IMG/VR virus record: IMGVR_UViG_3300047550_006202
Location: 1-52,738 of that record
DNA length: 52,738 bases
Strand: one strand, 5' to 3'
DNA from: a virus
Part shown: piece after piece, positions 28,424-49,533 of the stretch
Position numbering within the stretch: the stretch's first letter is position 1
Layout of the letters: each line of letters opens with the position of its first letter
Translations under genes and position numbers: made by a program
Notes under the pieces: model-generated
Seen by the model: the letters and a program-made list of their open reading frames with translations, nothing else
Told to the model about the DNA's origin: nothing
Databases searched by the model: none

Positions 28424-29395
28424 ATGGGAACACCTAGAGCTGAAATAACGAATCCTGAAATACAGAAGCTGGTGTTGGGATTACTCGAATCTCAATTGGG
28501 TAAAGGTAAGCCCGATAAGTTGGGTAACTACACGTTTTATTGTCCTGTATGCAAGCACAAAAAACCCAAGCTTGTAATTAACATCAAGTCAGGCGTTTAC
28601 AACTGTTGGACGTGTCACCCTCCCACCAAGGGAAGAAATCCAGTATCTCTGTTTAAAAAACTTTCAGTCCCCGGAAAAGTAATTTCGGAGATGAAGCAGT
28701 ACTTTGGAATGAAGACTACAAAGGAAGACATAGAATCTCAACCTATTGTGGCAGAATTACCCAAAGAATATGTTCCTATAACATTTTCTAAAACTGATCT
28801 GTACGAAAAGAAAGTTGTCTCATATTTAAAATTAAGGGGATTATCGGAGAGCGACATACTAAAGTACCAAATAGGATACTGTGTAAACGGTCGTTACAGG
28901 GATCGAGTGATCATCCCGTCGTTCGATTCCCAGGGAAAATTAAATTATTTTGTGGCAAGATCTATAGACCCAAACAAAAAACCCGCTTACGACGCGCCTA
29001 GCGTAAAGAAGACTGATATCATTGGTTTCGAATACTACGTTAATTTTAATGTGCCTGTAGTCCTTTGTGAGGGTGTGTTCGATGCTATGGCTATAAAAAG
29101 GAACGCCATTCCACTGTTTGGTAAGACAATTCCTAAAGCACTCATGATGAAACTTGTACAATCTCAAGTAAAAACTATATATTTAGCGTTGGATAAAGAC
29201 GCATTAAAAGAAAGTTATGCTTACGCAGAGGAATTGATAAATATGGGTAAGGAAGTTTATTTTTTAGATATGGACGATAAAGACCCGTCTATTCTTGGAT
29301 TCTCTAAAATGGTAGAAAAACTGCAACAAGCTAAACCCATGAAAACAGAGGATCTATTTTTTAAGAAGATGGAATTGATATTGGCAACTGCATGA
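28424..29395 (+). CDS. 61: DNA primase, T4 gp61-like (323 aa)
   Basis: An N-terminal zinc finger uses Cys40, Cys43, Cys61 and Cys64 (CPVC...CWTC). A Toprim-type catalytic core follows, with EGVFDA (Glu216, Asp220) and LALDKDA (Asp257, Asp259). Length and order match T4 gp61 (342 residues), the primase that makes pentaribonucleotide primers with helicase gp41. The ATG follows AATAAATATGT without a Shine-Dalgarno sequence. The stop overlaps the start of the gp47-gp46 fusion by 4 nt (ATGA), so the two are translationally coupled. Confidence 0.85.
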   Translation: MGTPRAEITNPEIQKLVLGLLESQLGKGKPDKLGNYTFYCPVCKHKKPKLVINIKSGVYNCWTCHPPTKGRNPVSLFKKLSVPGKVISEMKQYFGMKTTKEDIESQPIVAELPKEYVPITFSKTDLYEKKVVSYLKLRGLSESDILKYQIGYCVNGRYRDRVIIPSFDSQGKLNYFVARSIDPNKKPAYDAPSVKKTDIIGFEYYVNFNVPVVLCEGVFDAMAIKRNAIPLFGKTIPKALMMKLVQSQVKTIYLALDKDALKESYAYAEELINMGKEVYFLDMDDKDPSILGFSKMVEKLQQAKPMKTEDLFFKKMELILATA

Positions 29396-32300
29396 ATGAA
29401 ATAGTAAAGTCTAAGTTACATCTATCTAAGATAGATAAAATACACCACGTATCCGACGTACACATTAGGAATTACAAGCGACACACAGAATATAATCGCG
29501 TGTTCAATAGGTTGTACAATAGGATAAAAGCAAATCTAACTAAGAACGATCTTATAGTTCTCACCGGTGATATAGTACATTCTAAAACGGACGTCACGCC
29601 CGAACTATTCAATGAGGTTCAAAAGTTCCTGAACGGTCTGTGTGACATTGCACCGGTGCTCATGATACCTGGAAATCACGACACGAACCTCAATAACTCC
29701 CACAGACTCGACGCGTTGACTCCGATAGTAAATGCTATGGCGTCATCTAAGCTAGAGTACTATAAAGATTCCGCCATAATTCGCTTAGGTAATGTGGATT
29801 TTTACCACTGGTCTGTCATGGACGATGAACAGGACTATCCATCTGTTATGGAAAATTCCCAAGTAAACATCGCGCTATATCACGGTCCCGTAAACAATTG
29901 TACGACTGAAGCGGGGTTCGTCATAGAGAACGAGAGCATGACTGTGGAAAAATTCCGAGGCTTTGATATGGTCCTTTTGGGCGACATACACAAAACGCAA
30001 TTTCTAAACCCACAAAAAACAGTTGCATATCCAGGATCCTTAATACAACAGAACCACGGAGAAGAACGCAAGCACGGTTATTTGCTGTGGGAAGTAGAAA
30101 GCAGGTTCGTAGAGTTCGTTGAAGTAGAAAACGATACAGCGTTTTACACTATAGACGTCGATGCGGGTTTGCATAAACCCATAGACGAAACGCTTCCAGA
30201 GAATTTGTACCTTCGCGTAAGATACAAGAACACCGATCAAGCAACTCTGCGCGATATAGTAGATAGCTTGAGAAAACAGAAGAACATTGTTGAACTCACA
30301 ACGCAAAGAATAAGTACTTTTACGTCTAGTGAAAAGACACTCGATGCATCTAAAACTTTGGACTTTAGATCAATCGAACAACAAAAGAAACTTCTGACGG
30401 ATTTTCTCAAACAGAAGCACGATTTGAAACAAGAGGAGCTTGATAGAGTTCTTGAGATCAACGAACAGGTCAACAAATCTTTGAAGAAAAGCGAGGTACC
30501 AAGGAACTCTATGTGGATCCCTAAGCGCTTCGAGTTCGAGAACATGTTCAGCTACGGAAAGAACAATTTCGTCGATTTTACGAACATGAAAGGCACTTTT
30601 GGGCTTTTTGCGCCTAACGCTAGCGGAAAATCTACGTTGCTCGATTCTCTGACGTATTGCATATTCGATAAGTGTACCAAGACGAACCGTGGTCACCAAG
30701 TCATGAACTCAAGTAGCAATACTTTTTACTGTAAATTGAATTTTGAGCTGAACGGGCTAGATTATTTTATAGAGAGAAACGCTAAGCGCCAAAATTCTGG
30801 AAACGTTAGGGTAGAGGTCGATTTCTACTATGTGGACGAAGAAGGAAACAAGATTTCTCTAAACGGAAAAGACCGATCGGACACTAACAATAGCATAAAA
30901 AACTTATTGGGCAACTACGAGGATTTTGTTTTAACTACGCTATCCACACAGAGCAACAACACTGGGTTCATAGATATGAATCAGAAGGACCGCAAGGATC
31001 TATTGAGTCAATTTATGGATATAGGTGTCTTTGAAGAGCTGTACAATATAGCTAACGAGACAGCGAGGGAAAATGCCGCTGTGCTTAAACACTTCCAGAA
31101 AACTGATTACGAATCAAAACTCTGCGAGATAGAGCGCAATTTAGAACAATACAACAAAGATCTAAAGAAACAAAACTTAGAAAAGATCCACGCAGATTCA
31201 GAAAAGTCCGCTTTGACTGATAAGTTAGAGAAACTTATAAAACAACTTGAGTATGTCGACACTTCTATAATAGACGAAAAGGCAATAAGCAATAGTATAG
31301 TATCTTCGAAGAGCGAATTAATAGATCTTAATAAGGCAAAACATATACTCACTAACGAATTACACGCTCTTGCTATAGAGATAGATGAGTTACATTTTAG
31401 AGTTGATTCTGTGGATGAAAAATATCTAAAGAAACAATTAGAGGAATGTAAACAACTCGTAACTGAATTCAATAATGTTAACGTAGAAAAACAAAAGCTA
31501 TCAGAGCACATCTCCCATAAATTGGATAAAATGGGAAAATTGAAAGAGTTGGAATACGATCCAAACTGTAAGTATTGTATGGGTAACGTATTTGTGAAGG
31601 ACGCTATAACAGCCAAAGAACAGATAGCAGCAGATAGAGAAAAGCTTCAAGTATTAGAAAATAAACACAAGGAACTTGCTTCTAGTGTAAAAAAGTGTGC
31701 ATTGATCGAGCAATCTCGAGATTCTTACGAAGAAGTCAAAAGAATCTTAATGACCCTTAAGAATAAGTCTTCTGAATTGTCGTTGAAACTTGAAAGAGTC
31801 ATCAATAAAATAAAATCAGAGGAGGATTCAATAAAATTGGGCGAAGAGAAACTGCAACTTAGAAAAAAACAGCTCTCTTCCATTAAGAAAAACGAAATAA
31901 CAAATAAAAAGATAGAGGACACCAAGCGCGATATTAAAGTGCTTGATGCGGAAATAAAGCTATTGAATGCATCTCTATCAGATCTAAACGCGCAGATAAA
32001 GATAACTGAGAAGAGCATAGAGGATTTAAGAACTGAGATTGATAAGCGTAAAGGCCTTGAAACCTCACATCAGCTCTATCAATACTATTTGGAAGCTACT
32101 CATAGGGACGGAATACCCCACGAAGTTATATCTGTAACAATACCTCAAATAGAAGAGGAAGTGAACAACATCCTATCTCAATTGGTAGACTTTAGGATAG
32201 TATTTGAAACTGACGATAAGAACGTCAATGCCTACATAGCCTACAGCGAAGAGCGTTTTTGGCCTTTAGAGCTTACCTCCGGGATGGAAAAATTCGTCTC

Positions 32301-32550
32301 GTCCCTAGCAATTCGTACAGCGCTCATCAATATATCCACCCTTCCCAGGCCCAATTTTATTGCGATAGATGAGGGATTTGGATCATTGGACAAATCTAAC
32401 CTTGGATCCATGTCGCTGCTCTTCGATTACCTAAAGACCCAATTCAAATTCATAGTCATAATATCCCACATTGACTCTATGCGTGACGTGGTAGATTCCT
32501 ACATAGAAATCCACAAAGTAAAAGACAGATCATTAGTGAACCACGAGTAG
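29392..32550 (+). CDS. 47-46: Fused Mre11-Rad50-type exonuclease (gp47-gp46 single chain, 1052 aa)
   Basis: Residues 1 to about 260 are the Mre11/SbcD/gp47 phosphoesterase: SDVH (Asp22, His24), TGD (Asp60), GNHD (Asn95-Asp97), YHG (His164) and LGDIH (Asp198, His200). Residues about 375-1052 are Rad50/SbcC/gp46: Walker A APNASGKST (Lys413), long coiled coils, a CKYC zinc hook (Cys726, Cys729), LTSGME signature (about 961-966), Walker B IAIDEGF (Asp993, Glu994) and ISHID. In T4 the two are separate genes whose complex resects DNA ends for recombination-dependent replication. All key residues are present in both halves, so the fusion is probably active. Confidence 0.88.
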   Translation: MNEIVKSKLHLSKIDKIHHVSDVHIRNYKRHTEYNRVFNRLYNRIKANLTKNDLIVLTGDIVHSKTDVTPELFNEVQKFLNGLCDIAPVLMIPGNHDTNLNNSHRLDALTPIVNAMASSKLEYYKDSAIIRLGNVDFYHWSVMDDEQDYPSVMENSQVNIALYHGPVNNCTTEAGFVIENESMTVEKFRGFDMVLLGDIHKTQFLNPQKTVAYPGSLIQQNHGEERKHGYLLWEVESRFVEFVEVENDTAFYTIDVDAGLHKPIDETLPENLYLRVRYKNTDQATLRDIVDSLRKQKNIVELTTQRISTFTSSEKTLDASKTLDFRSIEQQKKLLTDFLKQKHDLKQEELDRVLEINEQVNKSLKKSEVPRNSMWIPKRFEFENMFSYGKNNFVDFTNMKGTFGLFAPNASGKSTLLDSLTYCIFDKCTKTNRGHQVMNSSSNTFYCKLNFELNGLDYFIERNAKRQNSGNVRVEVDFYYVDEEGNKISLNGKDRSDTNNSIKNLLGNYEDFVLTTLSTQSNNTGFIDMNQKDRKDLLSQFMDIGVFEELYNIANETARENAAVLKHFQKTDYESKLCEIERNLEQYNKDLKKQNLEKIHADSEKSALTDKLEKLIKQLEYVDTSIIDEKAISNSIVSSKSELIDLNKAKHILTNELHALAIEIDELHFRVDSVDEKYLKKQLEECKQLVTEFNNVNVEKQKLSEHISHKLDKMGKLKELEYDPNCKYCMGNVFVKDAITAKEQIAADREKLQVLENKHKELASSVKKCALIEQSRDSYEEVKRILMTLKNKSSELSLKLERVINKIKSEEDSIKLGEEKLQLRKKQLSSIKKNEITNKKIEDTKRDIKVLDAEIKLLNASLSDLNAQIKITEKSIEDLRTEIDKRKGLETSHQLYQYYLEATHRDGIPHEVISVTIPQIEEEVNNILSQLVDFRIVFETDDKNVNAYIAYSEERFWPLELTSGMEKFVSSLAIRTALINISTLPRPNFIAIDEGFGSLDKSNLGSMSLLFDYLKTQFKFIVIISHIDSMRDVVDSYIEIHKVKDRSLVNHE

Positions 32551-32564: not shown

Positions 32565-34280
32565 ATGAAGACGACTGTTTTACTCCCCGGAGGATTTAAA
32601 CCTCCCCATGTGGGACACCTACAACTCGCAAACGCTTACGCCGCTGATCCCAGTGTTGAAAAAGTGGTGGTGCTTGTTGGTCCATCTGAGAGAGACGGAA
32701 TAGGCAGAGATCAATCTTTGGCAGTTTGGAAACTTCTTCCCACTCACCCTAAAGTGAAAGTCGTTGCATCCGATATAGACAATCCGATGGAAGCCGCGTT
32801 CGAAACAGTATTGAACTTGGATAAATCAGCCACCGGTCAGTACGCTATGGGAGCTAGTTCAAAGGGATCTGATGCTCAAAGATCTAAGGTCTTTGTTGAC
32901 TATCTAAGAAAACACAAAACAGTTCCAACTCCTAGAGACAAAAAGATGACGCCTAAAGGCGTAAATCCAATTTTACTTCCAATAGATACTAGACCTCTAT
33001 TATATAAAGGTCGTAACGATGGATTAAACGGAACTGGAATAAGTGCAAGTGTGCTTAGAAAAGATCTCAAATCAGGAGACATAAAGAACTTCGCCACAAA
33101 CTATCCAGGAGTTCCTCAAAAAATTATTCAAGACATTTTCGATATACTCTCAAAAAAAAAGCTAAAAACTCCTACTAAAAAGTTAAGAGAGTTCGCTAAC
33201 ATTTTAGAGGGCGTAGCCGTATTTAGAACAGCCATAAGGCAATTGCTTACAGAGGGTGGAGCAGCTGGACACATGGCCCACCCATTTGATATCCCTACGG
33301 TGAAAAACGGATCTGATCTCATCAAAGTTTTTAAAGAAACTGAGACTTATCTCAAGAACAACGAAGTTCCTCTAAAAATAGACGGCATAAATTCTTCCAT
33401 TAGGCTTGTAAACACCGATAGTGGTAAAGAATTTGCGTTGGACCGTGGGTCTAACAAACCGCTTGACGTGAAGGGTGTAACAACTAAAGACTTAAAGAAC
33501 AGGTTCGAAAAGGGCCATGGAATGATAAAGATCGGTGGCACCGTTCTTAAGATATTCAACGAGGCATTACCGTCTGCTAAATCTGCGTTGAGCAAATTAG
33601 GACTCATGAAGAATCCTAACATCATGCTCAACATAGAATACGTAGAAGGAAAGTCTAACGTACAGAAGTACGAAAAGAACTTCATAGTGATACACAACTT
33701 GCTTGAAGTGAAACAATCAAAAGAGGGAAAGAGATCTATAGGCGAAATGTCTTATTCTAAAAACGATCTTCAAGCTTTAGTAGATGCTTTGAAACCGGTA
33801 GCTAAGAAATACGGATTCGAAGTATTTAACATGATACCCGCAAAAATGGAAAAAGGTTCTAACATAGCAACTGAATTGAGTAAATCGTACACGATTAACT
33901 ACGCCAAAGGTAAGAAAGAAACTAAAAGTTTGGATCAGTGGCTAAAGGATGCAAAGAATACTAAAGGTCAGAAACTGAAACTGAAAGACGGCAAAACTGT
34001 CGATGCGTTGAGCAAACAGGTTTTTATGGCGATAAACGGAGGTCAAAGCGTTCAAGACATGATCGCGGATCCAAAAGATATCAAAATTGCTGTAGACTCT
34101 TTCGTCATATACTTAGCTACAGAAAAATTAGGGGAAGCGATACTCAAATCCATGAGTTCTCCCCTTGGAAACGTTAACGATCAAGAGGGTATAGTGGTTA
34201 GAAACCCAAAAGTTTACGATAAACCCTATAAGATCACTGGATCTTTCATAACTAGGGGAATGCAATCACAATTCCGATAA
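32565..34280 (+). CDS. HxGH nucleotidyltransferase fused to a ligase-like nucleotidyltransferase (571 aa)
   Basis: Residues 1 to about 200 are a cytidylyltransferase/NMN-adenylyltransferase-type domain: GGFKPPHVGH (HxGH) and GTGISASVLRKDL (the ISSTxxR-like motif). Residues about 231-571 look like a DNA/RNA-ligase-type covalent nucleotidyltransferase: PLKIDGINSS (motif I, Lys271), LNIEYVEG (motif III-like), EGIVVR (motif IV, Glu541) and KPYKITGSF (motif V-like). A junction RQLLTE-GGAAGH lies at 227-231. The first domain would move a nucleotide to a phosphorylated substrate, and the second could seal or adenylylate nucleic acid. The ligase call is by motif only; an oligoadenylate or capping role cannot be excluded. 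Confidence 0.65.
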   Translation: MKTTVLLPGGFKPPHVGHLQLANAYAADPSVEKVVVLVGPSERDGIGRDQSLAVWKLLPTHPKVKVVASDIDNPMEAAFETVLNLDKSATGQYAMGASSKGSDAQRSKVFVDYLRKHKTVPTPRDKKMTPKGVNPILLPIDTRPLLYKGRNDGLNGTGISASVLRKDLKSGDIKNFATNYPGVPQKIIQDIFDILSKKKLKTPTKKLREFANILEGVAVFRTAIRQLLTEGGAAGHMAHPFDIPTVKNGSDLIKVFKETETYLKNNEVPLKIDGINSSIRLVNTDSGKEFALDRGSNKPLDVKGVTTKDLKNRFEKGHGMIKIGGTVLKIFNEALPSAKSALSKLGLMKNPNIMLNIEYVEGKSNVQKYEKNFIVIHNLLEVKQSKEGKRSIGEMSYSKNDLQALVDALKPVAKKYGFEVFNMIPAKMEKGSNIATELSKSYTINYAKGKKETKSLDQWLKDAKNTKGQKLKLKDGKTVDALSKQVFMAINGGQSVQDMIADPKDIKIAVDSFVIYLATEKLGEAILKSMSSPLGNVNDQEGIVVRNPKVYDKPYKITGSFITRGMQSQFR

Positions 34281-34285
34281 TTCTC

Positions 34286-35203
34286 ATGAAAGATACACAA
34301 AAAATAGCGATAATAAGGGACTTTTTAAAGTATTGTTACCATGAGCTTCAGATAAAGAAAGCCCCTAAGATACGTTTACACCACGATAATAAAGCAGTAA
34401 AAAATCAAGCCAGTTTTGGAGGCTACTATCCAGAAGGAAGAAGCATTCAAGTGTACATGAAGAATAGAAATTTGGCTGATGTTCTTAGAACATTAGGTCA
34501 CGAACTAGTTCATCACAGTCAACACGAGATAGCTGGTATAGACGTGATGGATGGTCAGACAGGATCTGATTACGAAAACGAAGCAAACAGCAAAGCTGGA
34601 GTTCTACTAAGGAACTATGGAAAGATGAATCCCATGATTTACGAATCAATAGTTTACATGGAGATGATAAACGAAGAAGACACAAAAGTCTATCAGATAT
34701 ACTGTGACATGGACGGGGTGTTGTGCGATTTCGATGCGCAATTCGAACACTACTTTGGAACATCTCCGTCAGAATACAAAAAAGAAAAAGGCATACCAAG
34801 TTTTAAGAACGCAATAGACGAAGCGGGAAAAGATTTTTGGGCTAACATGCCATGGACTTCTGCAGGACAAAGACTGTGGGAAAAGATAGGAGAATACGGG
34901 GTGATAATACTCACGGATCCTTCTAACTTTACAGAATCTAAAAAAGGAAAACTTGAGTGGATAAACCTCCATCTTTCTCCAATGCCGAAAAGCGTGATAT
35001 TCAAATCCACCGGTAAAAAACACGAGGTGCTTCAAGGAATGAATCCGAATGACATAGAAAAATGTGTTCTTATAGACGATTCAAAACTCAATACACGACC
35101 TTGGGAAGCCGCGGGAGGCATAGCATTTGAACACAGCGACAATAACCCCACTCACTATCAAATAGACACATTAGATTTAAAAGATAAAGAAGAAAAGTCA
35201 TGA
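34286..35203 (+). CDS. Metallopeptidase-like domain fused to HAD 5'-nucleotidase-like domain (305 aa)
   Basis: Residues 1 to about 125 hold a zincin motif GHELVHHSQHE (His72-His77), with DYENEANSKAG as a possible third-ligand helix. Residues 136-305 are HAD-type: CDMDGVLCDFD (nucleophile Asp141, Asp143), ILTDPSNF and KCVLIDDSKLN, like 5'(3')-deoxyribonucleotidases. An INE-ED site at 128-131 separates the two. The natural substrates are unknown. It starts 5 nt after the ligase-fusion gene and overlaps the next gene by ATGA, so the three form an operon. A nucleotide-salvage or RNA/DNA end-processing role would fit the neighbours but is inference. Confidence 0.65.
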   Translation: MKDTQKIAIIRDFLKYCYHELQIKKAPKIRLHHDNKAVKNQASFGGYYPEGRSIQVYMKNRNLADVLRTLGHELVHHSQHEIAGIDVMDGQTGSDYENEANSKAGVLLRNYGKMNPMIYESIVYMEMINEEDTKVYQIYCDMDGVLCDFDAQFEHYFGTSPSEYKKEKGIPSFKNAIDEAGKDFWANMPWTSAGQRLWEKIGEYGVIILTDPSNFTESKKGKLEWINLHLSPMPKSVIFKSTGKKHEVLQGMNPNDIEKCVLIDDSKLNTRPWEAAGGIAFEHSDNNPTHYQIDTLDLKDKEEKS

Positions 35204-35769
35204 AAGAATCAAATTTAAGTAGAGAATTTAATAAAAGAGAAGTACAGAGAATGAGAAACCTAATCTCCGGAAATGTAGGAGATAGGACACGGGTACAATC
35301 AGGATGGGAAAAACAAACCTTAGATAAAAAGGAGGGGGATGTTTGGGAGGAGAACGGAAAGACTTGGACCATTAAACGCGGTATAAAACAAAGCGTTACA
35401 AAGCACGATTCTATAAAGAAGCTTGCTCATTTTCCGATAGCATGTCCAAAGTGTAAAAAACACATGAGGGCTGATGATTTAAACAAAAAAATGTATTCTA
35501 TACATTCCATGTGTTTGGATTGTGTCATAGAAATGGAAGCAGAATTAAAGAAGCAAGGAAAATTCGAGAGCTACAACCTGGACATGCTTAAGAGCAACGA
35601 AAAAGTATACTTACAGGACGTGGAAAGCGCGTTAGAAGCGTGGTACACTGACAACGAAACCTTTGTAACTGAGAACGGGCAGATAGAATCTTGGGTAGGT
35701 GGAAATAAAAAAGTAGTCTACGACGCAGTAAAAGAGCAATTGAACCGAATAAAAAGTCAACAGGAGTAG
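35200..35769 (+). CDS. Zinc-finger protein of unknown function (189 aa)
   Basis: Residues about 80-110 carry a treble-clef-like finger with CPKC and CLDC. The N-terminus is basic (REFNKREVQRMRNLISGNVGDRTRVQSGWEKQT) and contains VWEENGKTWTIKRGIKQ, a short beta hairpin. The C-terminal part is helical. It overlaps the upstream HAD gene by 4 nt. The finger suggests nucleic-acid or protein binding. No family name is recognised with confidence. Confidence 0.6.
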   Translation: MKESNLSREFNKREVQRMRNLISGNVGDRTRVQSGWEKQTLDKKEGDVWEENGKTWTIKRGIKQSVTKHDSIKKLAHFPIACPKCKKHMRADDLNKKMYSIHSMCLDCVIEMEAELKKQGKFESYNLDMLKSNEKVYLQDVESALEAWYTDNETFVTENGQIESWVGGNKKVVYDAVKEQLNRIKSQQE

Positions 35770-42192: not shown

Positions 42193-43785
42193 ATGTCCCA
42201 AAATTCTCAACAAATACGCGATAGAATAAAAGAGGAATTCCTCAAGTGTGCCTCGGATCCTGTGTATTTCATGAGAAAATACTACATGATCCAACACCCC
42301 ACACGGGGTCGTCAACTCTTTGATCTATATCCATTTCAGGAAGGCACACTTAAGCTCTTACAAACTCACGACTACGTCATCATAAACAAATCCAGACAGC
42401 TCGGAATATCCACACTCGTGTCCGCTATATCCCTGTGGATGATGCTGTTCAATAAAGATAAAAACATTCTGGTGGTAGCTACAACCCAAGCTACAGCCAA
42501 AAACATGGTGACCAAAGTGAGATTCGCTTATCAAAACCTTCCTACTTGGTTGAAGATAGGCGCACAAGAAGACAATAGACTTAGCTTACGTTTGATAAAT
42601 GGATCTCAGATAAAGGCAGTATCAGGTGCAGGAGACGCCACTCGATCAGAGGCTGTGTCGCTCTTGATCATGGACGAAGCGGCGTTCATTGATAGAATAG
42701 ATGAGATATTTACTGCAGCTCAACAAACCCTTGCCACCGGTGGTCGATGCATAGCGTTATCCACCCCTAATGGCGTAGGTAACTGGTTCCATCAGACCTA
42801 CACAAAGGCGCAAAAGAAGGAAAATAATTTTTTACCGTTATCATTACCGTGGACAGTTCATCCTGAAAGAGATCAAGCTTGGAGAGAACAGCAAACTAAA
42901 GAATTAGGAGTAAGGAACGCGGCGCAAGAGTGCGATTGTGACTTCGCAACATCAGGAGCCACTGTCATAGATCCAGAGATCATGACTTGGTATGAAATGA
43001 ACATGATATCCGAGCCTGTAGAACGCAGAGGCATGGATAAATCTCTGTGGATTTGGGAATATCCCGATTCTGTTAAACATTACGCGGTAATTGCTGACGT
43101 AGCGCGCGGTGATGGAGCTGATTACTCTGCTTTCCATGTGATAGACATAGAAAACGTTTCTCAAGTAGCTGAGTTCAAAGCTCAGATTGATACACGAGAA
43201 TTTGCAAATGTGCTTCTTTCCGTGGCAAATGAATACAATCAAGCATTACTTGTTGTAGAAAACGCAAACATAGGTTGGGATGTTTTACAAACACTCATAG
43301 AAAAGGGATATCCTAACATCCACTATAGTCACCGAATGGAAACTGATAGCAGTTTTGAGAAGTATATTGACAGATTCGATAAGAACTCAGGAATGGTACC
43401 AGGTTTCACTATGACTCACAAATCTAGACCTTTAGTGATAGAAAGATTGCGAGACTTTGTTGAAAATAAAGTGTGTACGATAAGATCCATAAGGTTATTG
43501 GAAGAAATTAGGGTCTTTATATGGAAGAATGGAAAACAGCAGGCTATGCAGGGATACAATGACGACTTAGTCATATCTTTTGCTACGGCTATGTATTTAA
43601 GAGAGACCTCCCTAAGATTTAGAAAAACAATGGACAATTTGACCGCTGCGGCTTTGAATAGTTTTAACAAGACTTCAACGCCTCAACCATACGGGGGAAA
43701 CAATACTGGACAACCGAATCCGTGGTTAATGAATTATCATTCTCCCACAGGGGAACAGAGCGAAGATTTAAGATGGCTACTATAA
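42193..43785 (+). CDS. 17: Large terminase subunit, T4 gp17-like (530 aa)
   Basis: The N-terminal ATPase has a Walker A region reading INKSRQLGIST (Lys66-Thr74) and Walker B LLIMDEAAF (Asp161, Glu162). The C-terminal RNase H-like nuclease has ADVARGDGADYSAF (Asp302) and GYNDDLVISFA (Asp457, Asp458). It is shorter than T4 gp17 (610 residues). It docks on the portal and drives ATP-dependent DNA packaging, cutting the concatemer. In T4 the Walker A is SRQLGKTT; here the usual Lys is Ile and the only nearby Lys is at the start of the loop. It is followed 9 nt later by the portal gene. Confidence 0.9.
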   Translation: MSQNSQQIRDRIKEEFLKCASDPVYFMRKYYMIQHPTRGRQLFDLYPFQEGTLKLLQTHDYVIINKSRQLGISTLVSAISLWMMLFNKDKNILVVATTQATAKNMVTKVRFAYQNLPTWLKIGAQEDNRLSLRLINGSQIKAVSGAGDATRSEAVSLLIMDEAAFIDRIDEIFTAAQQTLATGGRCIALSTPNGVGNWFHQTYTKAQKKENNFLPLSLPWTVHPERDQAWREQQTKELGVRNAAQECDCDFATSGATVIDPEIMTWYEMNMISEPVERRGMDKSLWIWEYPDSVKHYAVIADVARGDGADYSAFHVIDIENVSQVAEFKAQIDTREFANVLLSVANEYNQALLVVENANIGWDVLQTLIEKGYPNIHYSHRMETDSSFEKYIDRFDKNSGMVPGFTMTHKSRPLVIERLRDFVENKVCTIRSIRLLEEIRVFIWKNGKQQAMQGYNDDLVISFATAMYLRETSLRFRKTMDNLTAAALNSFNKTSTPQPYGGNNTGQPNPWLMNYHSPTGEQSEDLRWLL

Positions 43786-43794
43786 TATAATAAA

Positions 43795-45729
43795 ATGGCA
43801 GAAGAAAAACCAAACATTCAAACCAACCTTTTTGGCGCACTGCGCAGGTTGTTTTCCACTGACGTTATCATTCGTAACGAGGGTGGTGGAGCAATAAAAG
43901 TACTCGATAGCGGTAGAATACAAACGAGTGGCGTACTGCAAAACAATAGCCTAATAGACAGATTCAACAAGGTCTATACGACTTCTACGGCTTACGGCGT
44001 AAACTTAAATCTAGCACAGAACTACCAATCTGCGCGAGTACAAATTTATGCAGACTACGACGCCATGGATACGGATGCTATAGTCGCGTCCGCGTTGGAT
44101 ATTATTGCTGATGAGTGCACATTGAAAAACGAACAGGGAGAAGTACTCCAGATAAAATCGTCTGACGAGAACATTCAAAAACTTCTGTACAACCTTTTCT
44201 ATTCTGTACTTAACATAGAATTTACCCTGTGGTCTTGGGTTAGAAACATGTGTAAATACGGAGATTTTTATCTTAAACTTGAAATCGCTGAGAAGTACGG
44301 TATATACAACGTAATACCATTTTCTGCGTACAACATAGTCAGACAAGAAGGATACAATCGGGAAAATCCAAGCGAAATTAGATTTAAATACGATCCAAAT
44401 GCTGCGCTCGCTAGTACAACCGCGGCTTATACCTCCGCTTACAATAATCAAGACGTAGGAATATATTTCGAGAATTACGAGATGGCTCACTTCCGTTTGA
44501 CTGGCGACGTTAACTATTTGCCTTACGGACGTTCGTACTTAGAACCTGCTCGTAAACTATTCAAACAATATACTCTTATAGAGGATGCAATGTTGATCCA
44601 CAGGATCGTTAGAGCGCCTGAGCGCCGTATATTTTATGTTAACGTTGGAGCTATACCGCCCGGAGAAGTTGAAAACTTCATGCAGCGAATGATCTCCAAA
44701 ATGAAGAAGACACCTTTGGTAGATCCGCAGACCGGTCAGTACAATCTTAAGTATAACGTGCAAAACATGTTAGAGGACTACTTCATACCGGTTCGTGGTA
44801 ACGATCAATCAACTAAGATCGATACAGCTAAAGGACTTGAATATAACGGCATTGAAGACGTTCAATACTTCCGCGAAAAACTTTTTGCAGCGCTTAAGAT
44901 CCCCAAAGCTTTTATGGGCTACGAAAAGGATTTGACAGGTAAAGCTACGCTTGCGGCAGAAGACATCAGATTCGCTAGAACAGTAGAAAGGATTCAGAGA
45001 ATCATAGTCTCTGAGCTCACGAAAGTGGGTCTTATACATTTGTACGCCCATGGATATACAAACGAATCCGCAGCGAATTTTACGCTGTCCTTGACTAATC
45101 CATCTATAATATACGATCAAGAGAGAATCGCTCTATTCAAAGAAAAGATTGATTTGGCTACCCAAGCCCTTGATGCTAGACTTCTTCCGAAAGACTTTAT
45201 TTACGATAAGATATTCCACTTCTCCGAAGATCAATACGCAGAAATGGATCAGCAAATAGTAGAAGATCAAAAGAGAATGTTCAGATACGAACAGATCAAA
45301 GCGGAGGGCAATGATCCTGCTGAAACAGGTCAGGCATTTGGCACTCCTCACCAATTGGCAGGTCTATATGGAGGTAAGGGCGATATGACCCTTGACGTTC
45401 CAACTGGATACGATGAAAACAAACCAGAAAAAGAGTATGAGAGCCCTGGTCGCCCTCAAAAATATAAATCTTCTAGAGGGACAGACGCTTCACCCTTTGG
45501 CAGAGATGCAATGGGAAGGTACGACATGAAGTCGAATGCTGAGACTGGAGAAGACAAATTGAGATCGGAATACAAACCGTTTGGTCTAACTTCAGAGAAC
45601 GCAATGTCAGAATATCTGAAGAATAAAGCCCTATTAGAGAAGATGAACAAGATGAACAAGAGAAAAGTGAATCTTTTTGAACAGCCGGACGTATTGAACG
45701 AGGATAATATCCTAGACGATCAGGATTAA
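43795..45729 (+). CDS. 20: Portal protein, T4 gp20-like (644 aa)
   Basis: Conserved portal landmarks are present: YADYDAMDTDAIVASALDIIADECTL, LWSWVRNMCKYGDFYLKLEI, HRIVRAPERRIFYVNVGAIPPGEVENFMQRMISKMKK, EDYFIPVRGNDQSTKIDTAKGLEYNGIEDVQYFREKLFAALKIPKAFMGY and FARTVERIQRIIVSEL. It is longer than T4 gp20 (524). The extra length is an acidic, Gly- and Pro-rich C-terminal tail from about residue 510 (GTPHQLAGLYGGKGDM, YESPGRPQKYKSSRG). It forms the dodecameric ring that starts head assembly and through which DNA enters. It follows the terminase gene directly. Confidence 0.9.
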   Translation: MAEEKPNIQTNLFGALRRLFSTDVIIRNEGGGAIKVLDSGRIQTSGVLQNNSLIDRFNKVYTTSTAYGVNLNLAQNYQSARVQIYADYDAMDTDAIVASALDIIADECTLKNEQGEVLQIKSSDENIQKLLYNLFYSVLNIEFTLWSWVRNMCKYGDFYLKLEIAEKYGIYNVIPFSAYNIVRQEGYNRENPSEIRFKYDPNAALASTTAAYTSAYNNQDVGIYFENYEMAHFRLTGDVNYLPYGRSYLEPARKLFKQYTLIEDAMLIHRIVRAPERRIFYVNVGAIPPGEVENFMQRMISKMKKTPLVDPQTGQYNLKYNVQNMLEDYFIPVRGNDQSTKIDTAKGLEYNGIEDVQYFREKLFAALKIPKAFMGYEKDLTGKATLAAEDIRFARTVERIQRIIVSELTKVGLIHLYAHGYTNESAANFTLSLTNPSIIYDQERIALFKEKIDLATQALDARLLPKDFIYDKIFHFSEDQYAEMDQQIVEDQKRMFRYEQIKAEGNDPAETGQAFGTPHQLAGLYGGKGDMTLDVPTGYDENKPEKEYESPGRPQKYKSSRGTDASPFGRDAMGRYDMKSNAETGEDKLRSEYKPFGLTSENAMSEYLKNKALLEKMNKMNKRKVNLFEQPDVLNEDNILDDQD

Positions 45730-45762: not shown

Positions 45763-46626
45763 ATGACGATAAAGCATAGCAAATATCGTAACACGGCTAT
45801 TCTTTTTGAATTGCTAGTGAGACAAACCACAGCCGACCTGCTGCAAAACAGAGACTCTAGGGCAGTGAAGATACTTAGAAAGCACTTCACGAATACAGAA
45901 TTGGGCAAAGAATACGCCCTTTACACGTCCTTTAATACTATCGGAAGATTGTCCGAATCAAAGGCAGAGATGTTTATTAACACTGTATTGGAGCAAAGAA
46001 AGAAACTGAACGAAGACAGGCTTAGAAAAGAGAAATTTAACCTCATAAAGGAAATAAAGAACGTTTACGATATAGACGATTTCTTCAAAGCCAAGATAGA
46101 TAATTACAAGACGTACGCCTCCATATACACTCTTTTCGAATCCCAGAACAACAAGGCTTTTGTTGATAGCAAACAACTGCTATTAAATAAAATAAACATA
46201 GTTGAACACATCGTGGGAGAAAACGCAAGCCAAAAACCGGCTTCTGCTGCTTTAGTGGAAGAATTCATGAAGGAAGACAAAGAGGTTCGTTTATTGGCTT
46301 ACAAGCTTTTGGTTGAGAAATTCAACGAAAAGTACTCTGATCTTTCAAAGAAGCAAAAAGCCGTTTTGAAGGAGTACATAAACAACATATCGGAAACTGA
46401 GAATCTCAAAGAGTTTATGAATAAGACCATAAAAGAGATCAAGTCCGAGCTGAGTAACATAAGCACTAAGATAAAAGATCCAGTGGTTAAGATAAAACTC
46501 AACGAAACTATCAAGTTGCTGCATCCTATAAACAACAACCAGTTCGTTAAAGACGAAATAATAACAAGCGTTTTGCAATACTTGGATCTGATAGACGAGT
46601 TAAAACGTGTCTCTAATGAAAAATAA
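45763..46626 (+). CDS. Conserved head-region helical protein (287 aa)
   Basis: The protein is almost entirely helical and Lys-rich, beginning MTIKHSKYRNTAILFELLVRQTTADLLQNRDSRAVKILRKHF. The NTAILFELLVRQTTADLL block is one that, from memory, recurs between portal and protease genes in other distant T4-like phages. The C-terminal third has a helix set ending LLHPINNNQFVKDEIITSVLQYLDLIDEL. No enzyme motif. A prohead core or internal-protein function is plausible by location. It overlaps the next gene by 11 nt. Confidence 0.6.
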   Translation: MTIKHSKYRNTAILFELLVRQTTADLLQNRDSRAVKILRKHFTNTELGKEYALYTSFNTIGRLSESKAEMFINTVLEQRKKLNEDRLRKEKFNLIKEIKNVYDIDDFFKAKIDNYKTYASIYTLFESQNNKAFVDSKQLLLNKINIVEHIVGENASQKPASAALVEEFMKEDKEVRLLAYKLLVEKFNEKYSDLSKKQKAVLKEYINNISETENLKEFMNKTIKEIKSELSNISTKIKDPVVKIKLNETIKLLHPINNNQFVKDEIITSVLQYLDLIDELKRVSNEK

Positions 46627-47677
46627 AAATCGTGATTTTAACGTCCAATTTGCCACTCAAAGGCTTCGTGAAAATGTCACGAATGCGGGCGGAGCAACAG
46701 CAACACCTGGCACAGGAGAACAGTATTTTGCAAGGGGTAAAAAAATCAGAGAGACAATAAAGAAAGTAGACGGAAAATACGCCGTTTATCCAGAAAAGGG
46801 CGGAAGCAGATTGGGTACTCACGATACAAAAGAGAAAGCGCAAAAGCAATTAGCGGCCATCGAGATTAGCAAACAACAAAAAGAGGCTAAAGAACGTGGA
46901 ACTGGAAAGGGACTAATATATGTCGACCTCTGGGAAATGTTTAGCGAAGAGGAGGCAGATCCCAAAGAAGGTGACTCAGTAAAGATACAAAAGAAAGGAA
47001 GTCCACAAGACGGAAAGATCGGCAAGATAGTTTCCATCACGGAACCCGGCGCTTACAACATAGACTTCAATGGAAAAGTATACACATTCCAAGAAACGGA
47101 TTTTGTGATCGATAAAAGCGCAGAAGATCAACCTGAAGAAACAGGAGAAGAAAATGCCGAAGAGCCCGTTAGCGAGGGTTTAGGCGCGCCTGGAATGAAC
47201 GTAGGTACTGTTGGTCTGGGAGGCGGAAGAAAAGGCATCTATTTCATAACTGATAAGGGAAAATTTGTATACGAACCCAATCCATTAGAATACGAAGCCT
47301 TTGAACTCTCAGGCGGTAAGGTTCGAATGCTGTTAGCAAAATCTTGGTTTCCCAAAGCAAAACCTTGGGAAGAAAAACCGAATCCGATGGCATCGCTAGG
47401 TCAGGGTAAAGGTCACCACATTGACGAGGAGTTGAACGAAAACTATTCGCGCTTTAAGAAAGAGACTAAGACACGCACCAACGAGCAACAGTTGCACGCA
47501 GCAATGAGACTCGCTGAGAAAAAGATACACGAGGCCAATAGGATCCTAGAGTACACTTCGCAACTGCGCGGTGAACTGAACGAGACCAAAGTGAACAAGA
47601 ACATTAAAAGAATAATGGAAAAAATCACTGTCGGCATCGCAGAAGCCTACAGCAAAATGAAAAAAATCAAAAGGTAA
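46616..47677 (+). CDS. Head-region protein with KOW/SH3-like segment (353 aa)
   Basis: ATG 46616 (MKNKNRDFNVQFATQRLREN) is preferred over a GTG at 46607. Residues about 40-95 (GKKIRETIKKVDGKYAVYPEKGGSRLGTHDTKEKAQKQLAAIE) form a small conserved unit like those in which a lysate-type peptide repeats a GTH step. About 125-165 (EGDSVKIQKKGSPQDGKIGKIVSITEPGAYNIDF) fits a small KOW/SH3 barrel. The C-terminal part is helical (LHAAMRLAEKKIHEANRILEYTSQLRGELNET). No enzyme. It overlaps the previous gene and lies in the head block, so it is probably a core or scaffold-associated protein. Confidence 0.55.
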   Translation: MKNKNRDFNVQFATQRLRENVTNAGGATATPGTGEQYFARGKKIRETIKKVDGKYAVYPEKGGSRLGTHDTKEKAQKQLAAIEISKQQKEAKERGTGKGLIYVDLWEMFSEEEADPKEGDSVKIQKKGSPQDGKIGKIVSITEPGAYNIDFNGKVYTFQETDFVIDKSAEDQPEETGEENAEEPVSEGLGAPGMNVGTVGLGGGRKGIYFITDKGKFVYEPNPLEYEAFELSGGKVRMLLAKSWFPKAKPWEEKPNPMASLGQGKGHHIDEELNENYSRFKKETKTRTNEQQLHAAMRLAEKKIHEANRILEYTSQLRGELNETKVNKNIKRIMEKITVGIAEAYSKMKKIKR

Positions 47678-48900: not shown

Positions 48901-49533
48901 ATGCCAAAAGAACTCCTCATAGAGTACTCGATATTCAAACCCAAAATAGAACTTAGGGAAGGGTTTAAATCTTCTAACGGCAACATGATCGTTAGCGGAC
49001 AGGTACAAGCCTGTGATAAGCCCAACGCAAACAAGCGCATATACCCCTACGAGACTCTTAAGAAGCAAGTCGAATTGTATTTGGATGGACCCATAAGAGA
49101 GAATCGTGCGTTGGGAGAATTGGACCACCCAGAGTCATCGGTGATAAACCTTAAGAATGTTTCTCACAACATAAAGAGCCTTTGGTGGGAAGATAAGGAC
49201 CTCTACGGAACGGTTGAGATACTTCCTACGCCATCGGGCAACATACTTAAGGAATTGTTCAAAAACGGTATCACCGTGGGAATATCTTCTAGAGCACAGG
49301 GTTCAACAAGTCCAATAGGCGAAGGATTGGTAAAGGTCGAAGACGATCTTGAAGTGATATGTTGGGACTTTGTATCCCAACCATCAACCTACGGTGCGTA
49401 CATGAAACCCATGAACGGTATAAACGAGTCTATAGATTACAATCAAAGAATCGTAAATAATTATAGTAGAGCGAACGATCTGATGAGGAGCATAATATGC
49501 GAGATGTCGGGCGTTTGTTGCGTATCAAAATAA
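48901..49533 (+). CDS. 21: Prohead protease, T4 gp21-like (210 aa)
   Basis: The family motifs are NKRIYPYETLKKQVELYL, GELDHPESS with catalytic His76, and GITVGISSRAQG with the catalytic Ser at 129 or 130, then EVICWDFVSQPSTYGAYM. The length (210) equals T4 gp21 (212). It is a herpesvirus-assemblin-type serine protease that cleaves scaffold, capsid and internal proteins after (L/I)xE sites in T4. The start follows GCATAAATAAAATTATTGTAGA without a Shine-Dalgarno sequence. It lies immediately upstream of unknown and scaffold genes, in the T4 order. Confidence 0.88.
   Translation: MPKELLIEYSIFKPKIELREGFKSSNGNMIVSGQVQACDKPNANKRIYPYETLKKQVELYLDGPIRENRALGELDHPESSVINLKNVSHNIKSLWWEDKDLYGTVEILPTPSGNILKELFKNGITVGISSRAQGSTSPIGEGLVKVEDDLEVICWDFVSQPSTYGAYMKPMNGINESIDYNQRIVNNYSRANDLMRSIICEMSGVCCVSK

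Follow-up and report, generated by a model that had tools for sequence, protein, structure and literature searches.

Why should a single phage protein carry two different nucleotidyltransferases, and what becomes of them? The question is raised by an open reading frame at positions 32565–34280 (plus strand, ATG start, 571 amino acids) of the viral sequence IMGVR_UViG_3300047550_006202 from IMG/VR, whose whole 52,738 nucleotides are referred to here as the window. An initial annotation, made from the sequence alone, had described an HxGH nucleotidyltransferase fused to a ligase-like one, and translation of the window bore out both the position of the frame and the motifs listed for it: HVGH (residues 15–18), ISASVLR (159–165), KIDG (271–274, with Lys271), IEYVEG (357–362), EGIVVR (541–546) and KITGS (556–560). 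Three features were absent from that annotation, namely an L/I-x-E↓GG junction (the arrow marks the presumed cut), a T4-type head-gene context, and relatives with many other enzymes between the two domains. Our preferred reading, which we consider moderately probable, is that the gene encodes a head-packaged cargo polyprotein of a T4-like phage, which would be cut at head maturation and injected.

Two nucleotidyltransferase folds on one chain

The AlphaFold2 model of the full-length protein consisted of two confident domains and a disordered linker (residues 200–234), with a mean predicted local distance difference test (pLDDT) score of 88. Foldseek matched the two parts to NadD and to T4 RNA ligase 1, in agreement with the earlier view that two different nucleotidyltransferase folds share the chain. 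At the level of sequence, the whole protein had no match in Pfam and, among PHROGs, a weak cytidyltransferase match over its first 40 residues. Separate profile searches of the halves, which the initial annotation had proposed as a check, succeeded in part for the first domain, with matches to NMNAT, NadD and CoaD that were all weak, and returned no profile match for the C-terminal half.

Domain 1 (residues 1–199; 32565–33161) is a NadD/NMNAT-like member of the HIGH superfamily. The best PDB matches of the full-length model were NadD adenylyltransferases (Foldseek probability 1.00, E 2e-4), and HVGH and ISASVLR correspond to the HxGH and ISxTxxR motifs of the superfamily. Gly9, Phe11, Pro13, His18, Ser160 and Arg165 were invariant in an alignment of 24 fused proteins, two rows of which were mis-trimmed; family-wide conservation covered GxFxP, the second His of HxGH, and the Ser and Arg of the ISxTxxR-type motif. 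Judged by sequence, the domain most likely adenylates nicotinamide mononucleotide (NMN) or a similar phosphate to give a dinucleotide cofactor. It shares fold and motifs with NadD, NadM and NMNAT, but is divergent from them. In a large clade (L003 and many others; L numbers denote related loci) the HxGH motif reads GRFQPFGxHH, the first His being lost and a His gained two residues later. The nearest relatives of the first domain were found in Lak phages, where it stands alone; in Prevotella phage Lak-B2 (L301) such a stand-alone relative, without the ligase half, adjoins an acidic gene resembling a scaffold gene.

Domain 2 (residues 231–571; 33255–34277) is an RNA-ligase-like covalent nucleotidyltransferase according to its invariant residues and predicted structure. 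The C-terminal half was modelled with a pLDDT of 89 (AlphaFold2 with the family alignment), and its first PDB match in Foldseek was T4 RNA ligase 1 (E 2.8e-3, probability 0.90), so the nucleotidyltransferase fold on which the initial annotation had staked its proposal was recovered. The later matches were mostly archaeal, T4-type-2, editing and Naegleria RNA ligases, together with mRNA capping enzyme and T7 DNA ligase. Kinship to RNA ligases is remote, since the top RNA-ligase fold matches (E 3e-3 to 3e-2) had low TM-scores, near 0.24. An alignment of 36 diverse members, with identity down to about 19%, revealed a shared series of GG..GHMAHPF, KxDG, NxEY, Tyr, His, EGxV and K-x-TG-x-F. The invariant residues were Lys271, Asp273 and Gly274 (motif I, KIDG), Asn356 and Glu358 (motif III, NIEYV), His377, Glu541, Gly542 and Val544 (motif IV, EGIVV), and Lys556, Thr558 and Gly559 (motif V, KITG). 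KxDG, Glu and EGxV, which mark motifs I, III and IV of ATP-dependent RNA ligases, were thus all present and invariant, and Lys271 kept its assignment as the motif I lysine.

Going by the model, the C-terminal half appears to be an undescribed, remote relative of RNA ligases. Its most likely activity is to seal RNA after self-adenylation at Lys271; an RNA substrate is favoured by the order of the fold matches and by one relative that carries HD and CCA-adding domains in its chain, the latter making RNA repair a plausible role. We found neither the fusion nor the C-terminal family described in Pfam, NCBIfam, PHROGs, PDB sequences or the literature searched, as the initial annotation had suspected; a large ligase-like family with a clear candidate catalytic lysine is absent from the profile libraries searched. 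A role as the main replicative ligase is unlikely: two of five large related records also encode an ordinary ATP DNA ligase, and one an Rnl2-type ligase.

Candidate cleavage sites in the linker and in leaders

The linker (residues 200–234; 33162–33266), in which pLDDT fell below 50 in the full-length model, contains two strict L/I-x-E↓[GAS] sites, NILE215↓G and LLTE230↓GG. The bond Glu230–Gly231 (33252–33257) lies in the disordered linker in both the C-terminal-half and the full-length model, at the edge of the proposed mature protein, and a cut there would free the ligase-like domain. In T4, the prohead protease gp21 cleaves L/I-X-E motifs on the C-terminal side of Glu (PMC9026906). We examined the residues preceding GG in 95 distinct relatives picked by the pattern GG..GHM.HPF, which makes Gly at P1' a given and leaves the preceding residues free: P1 was Glu in 93 of them, and P3 was Leu, Ile or Val in all 95.

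The motif was also enriched in linkers beyond this junction. With the universal junction excluded, 45 strict [LI]xE[GAS] sites were observed in linkers versus 18.4 in shuffled sequences (z 7.0, a score that overstates independence because the proteins, thinned at 80% identity, are still related). Domain 1 and domain 2 were depleted, with 1 site versus 10.7 and 13 versus 28.2, respectively. Control motifs with Asp, Lys, Asn or Thr at P1, or with the order shifted or reversed, showed no such linker excess, and Gln at P1 gave a mild one. This enrichment argues strongly for protease sites and should not be read as an exact probability. In individual relatives, all strict sites of L143 (6/6) and L254 (7/7) lay outside recognised domains, and two of the six in L176 fell inside the ligase half.

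Exactly at the GGAA junction, five relatives (L031, L032 and L098–L100) carry about 250 extra in-frame residues that are zinc-finger (ROS/MUCR-like) and homing-endonuclease-like. An RNA family (Rfam) search of one of them, L099, returned no match, leaving a group I intron unsupported.

Stand-alone ligase relatives start with short leaders, MITFKQFLLE, MLSFLQFLAE or MTTFKEFYQLISE, each followed directly by GG. For comparison, T4 IPIII starts MKTYQEFIAE↓A and T4 IPI starts MKTFKEF. According to Mullaney and Black, as reviewed in PMC9026906, targeting depends mainly on residues 4 and 7, and processing on residues 8 and 10. L071 and L073 fit all four positions (aromatic at 4 and 7, aliphatic at 8, Glu at 10), and L067–L070 and L072 nearly fit the T4-type capsid-targeting peptide. 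A similar leader ending in [LIV]xE also precedes the first domain in 72 of 221 complete fused proteins. In L074, a targeting-like leader, MTKKRDQDLLVE, stands before the GG of the ligase-like domain. A candidate tag that other genes of the same phages might share, the motif FSKxWW, was seen in the polyprotein alone.

Relatives with other enzymes and the head-gene context

Searches with the C-terminal half returned 144 relatives in viral contigs in a first scan and more than 500 with an alignment, and a separate scan returned at least 598 relatives of a second sub-family. The two-domain fusion was present in well over a hundred contigs. Among annotated phage records, matches to the C-terminal half came only from Microcystis phage Mel-JY01, besides two unannotated uncultured phage records. 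The Mel-JY01 protein has the same two-domain architecture and is entered as 'Cytidylyltransferase like protein', and viral homologues of the ligase domain in BFVD are named 'cytidyltransferase-like domain-containing'; in both cases only the first domain is named, and the ligase-like half and the cleavage sites are unannotated. No literature was found on Mel-JY01 or on such polyproteins.

The architecture of these relatives is highly variable. The ligase half comes first and the HxGH enzyme second in L074 (4977–7283) and L082, and the ligase half stands alone in L067–L073. In other relatives it is preceded by up to ~1,100 residues, in which Pfam and PHROG scans identified superoxide dismutase, plastocyanin, HD, tRNA nucleotidyltransferase, DUF192, SET, GNAT and HAD modules, and relatives with enzymes inserted between the two domains have L/I-x-E sites between the modules. 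L143 (1428–5660) is predicted to join, in one protein, a NadD-like enzyme to a complete Fe/Mn superoxide dismutase, a copper protein resembling plastocyanin, the ligase-like domain and an acetyltransferase (GNAT). L254 (1073–5248) encodes a targeting-like leader, a NadM-like domain, HD, a CCA-adding enzyme (phrog_2244, 1e-62) and the ligase-like domain, each module being flanked by L/I-x-E↓[GAS].

In the window, the gene is followed by terminase, portal, core-like proteins and a head maturation protease. The large terminase subunit (42193–43785; phrog_2, 3e-48) and the portal protein (43795–45729; phrog_213, 5e-68) precede a gp21-like prohead protease (48901–49533; phrog_207, 4e-47), our candidate for the processing enzyme, which shares 29% identity with T4 gp21 (BLASTP, 8e-19) and has the GELDHP and SSR blocks in common with it. 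Upstream lies a gp46/47 (SbcC/SbcD-like) recombination nuclease (29392–32550; phrog_77, 2e-54; phrog_100, 3e-35). These four genes and the two named next are on the plus strand. Immediately downstream are a metallopeptidase (HELVHH) joined to a HAD part (34286–35203) that resembles 5'-3' deoxyribonucleotidase (phrog_2643, 9e-25), and a Zn-ribbon-like protein of unknown function (35200–35769).

Neighbours were counted at 157 related loci. The Zn-ribbon gene was the most conserved (126 loci), followed by gp46/47 (69), terminase (47) and HAD (13); most loci with enough sequence had primase or gp46/47 upstream and terminase downstream. What stays constant around the gene is the T4-type head gene block, with its gp21-like prohead protease. 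In a near-identical phage (L001/L300) the major capsid protein matches T4 gp23, and its L/V-x-E sites lie at residues 11, 38, 53 and 62, whereas the other 511 residues hold a single further one. Modules of the metallopeptidase/HAD type, as in the window neighbour, occur inside the polyproteins L144, L150 and L176, the in-chain HAD of L176 resembling polynucleotide kinase (phrog_415, 1.5e-8, cargo set). The polyproteins L086 and L252 contain the module VDGKYAVYPEKGGSRLGTHDTKEKAQKQLAAIE (phrog_3684), which is also encoded in the window at 46607–47677, suggesting a shared head-core module.

Proposed packaging as head cargo and the alternatives to it

We propose that the precursor would be built into the prohead core through a capsid-targeting-like sequence in the linker; the window protein has no N-terminal leader, and targeting would therefore come from the linker helix. 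The gp21-type protease (48901–49533) would then cut after Glu230, and perhaps after Glu215, to release the NadD/NMNAT-like adenylyltransferase from the RNA-ligase-like enzyme; the two would remain inside the head until they are injected along with the DNA. There, domain 2 would form Lys271-AMP from ATP and seal broken RNA, probably tRNA cut by host defences, and domain 1 would adenylate NMN or a similar phosphate, restoring a depleted nucleotide cofactor. With about even chances, the same may hold widely: many T4-type environmental phages would load their heads with a multi-enzyme polyprotein, NadD-like enzyme first, RNA-ligase-like enzyme usually last and variable passengers in between, and the prohead protease would dice it at L/I-x-E sites while still inside the head, so that separate repair and metabolic enzymes reach the host as infection begins. 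Besides Alt, T4 injects a few small proteins. If the proposal is true, processing of a polyprotein would let phages pack a variety of enzymes with a single targeting system, and its modules would list, ready-made, the proteins that are wanted in the cell ahead of phage gene expression.

The cargo proposal has partial precedents. Head cargo of T4 carries 10–19-residue leaders ending in L/I-x-E, is cut by gp21 and is injected into the host (PMC9026906), and the stand-alone ligase relatives carry leaders matching those of IPI, IPII, IPIII and Alt. Unlike the T4 internal proteins, which are encoded one per gene, the present family has several enzymes per chain with sites between them, and the presumed targeting sequence of the window protein is internal. 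The polyvalent proteins of phages and conjugative elements are likewise multi-domain, with mixed effector domains and predicted host delivery (Iyer et al. 2017, PMC5512222); the delivery of the present protein is likewise a prediction. A text search of PMC5512222, however, showed neither a HIGH-type nucleotidyltransferase nor a ligase-like domain in the delivered set, and no prohead-protease site separating one domain from the next.

Several observations weigh against packaging, cleavage or the proposed activities. The window protein lacks an N-terminal capsid-targeting peptide, so that its signal would have to be internal; L/I-x-E, a weak motif, arises by chance and occurs also in primase; and no virion proteome of any carrier phage was found in the literature searched. 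No tRNA genes were found in the window. An NMN role would lack its NadV partner, PF04095 not being found in five large related records, which are possibly incomplete. The ligase match is remote: the C-terminal half had no Pfam or PDB sequence match, the protein did not match the family profiles PF09414 and PF09511 (hmmscan), and a whole-profile PDB search gave no match. Comparison by hhalign with single T4 Rnl1 and Rnl2 sequences was not significant, the only block aligned with T4 Rnl1 being N-x-E-(Y/F)-V. Motif V is K-x-T-G in all aligned members, versus K-x-K in RNA ligases. The half has the covalent nucleotidyltransferase fold and motif order (KxDG, E, EGxV, K) of T4 RNA ligase 1 and Rnl2-type enzymes, but differs from them in its own signature GG..GHM.HPFD, in a long insertion between motifs IIIa and IV and in having almost nothing, and no C-terminal domain, after motif V. 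Since motif V differs and the profile tests failed, the half should not be classified with the Rnl1 or Rnl2 ligases.

Four other explanations were considered. The first is that L/I-x-E↓GG is no protease site but a conserved stretch at which the folded ligase domain begins, the protein being made late but unpackaged. The cut is a prediction, and the GG..GHM.HPF block that follows is itself nearly invariant. However, residues 7–19 of the C-terminal-domain model were predicted to be disordered, the motif recurs in other linkers as described above, and the stand-alone copies have 10–13-residue leaders resembling those of T4 internal proteins; we regard this explanation as doubtful.

The initial annotation had envisaged an operon dedicated to the repair of RNA or DNA ends, in which the HAD phosphatase next to the gene would take part. 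Such an operon is unlikely, although it does not exclude the cargo proposal, since repair could be a delivered function. The RNA-ligase fold, the in-chain HAD modules of L144 and L176 and the HD and CCA-adding domains of L254 speak for it. The operon is rejected as the main explanation because the HAD is rarely conserved (13/157 loci); in addition, that of the window looks like a deoxyribonucleotidase, and other cargo (superoxide dismutase, plastocyanin, SET, DUF192) is unrelated to end repair.

A stable bifunctional cytoplasmic enzyme, whose NMNAT-like domain would regenerate nicotinamide adenine dinucleotide (NAD+) from NMN and ATP for an NAD+-using ligase domain, is quite improbable. Both domains look catalytically intact, and fusion in both orders (ligase first in L074 and L082) suggests a functional link. 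Against this, Pfam did not detect in the protein the NMN-binding domain Ia (PF01653) of NAD+-dependent DNA ligases, and neither PF01653 nor the NadV family PF04095 was found in the five large, possibly incomplete related records; recycling between an NAD+-dependent ligase and an NMNAT was rejected on these grounds, and the NAD-linked system of the initial annotation is not supported either. The ligase domain also occurs alone, the domains are often 200–900 residues apart with unrelated enzymes in the gap, and the linkers are disordered and rich in L/I-x-E. The earlier operon idea, whether as HAD-coupled end repair or as NAD-linked modification, thus seems at most partly right. A purely structural role, in which the ligase-like domain would serve the prohead core as an inactive scaffold component, is very improbable: the gene sits among head genes, motif V has no second lysine and a large insertion separates motifs IIIa and IV, but the motif I Lys, the motif III and IV Glu and the motif V Lys stay invariant in sequences with as little as about 19% identity.
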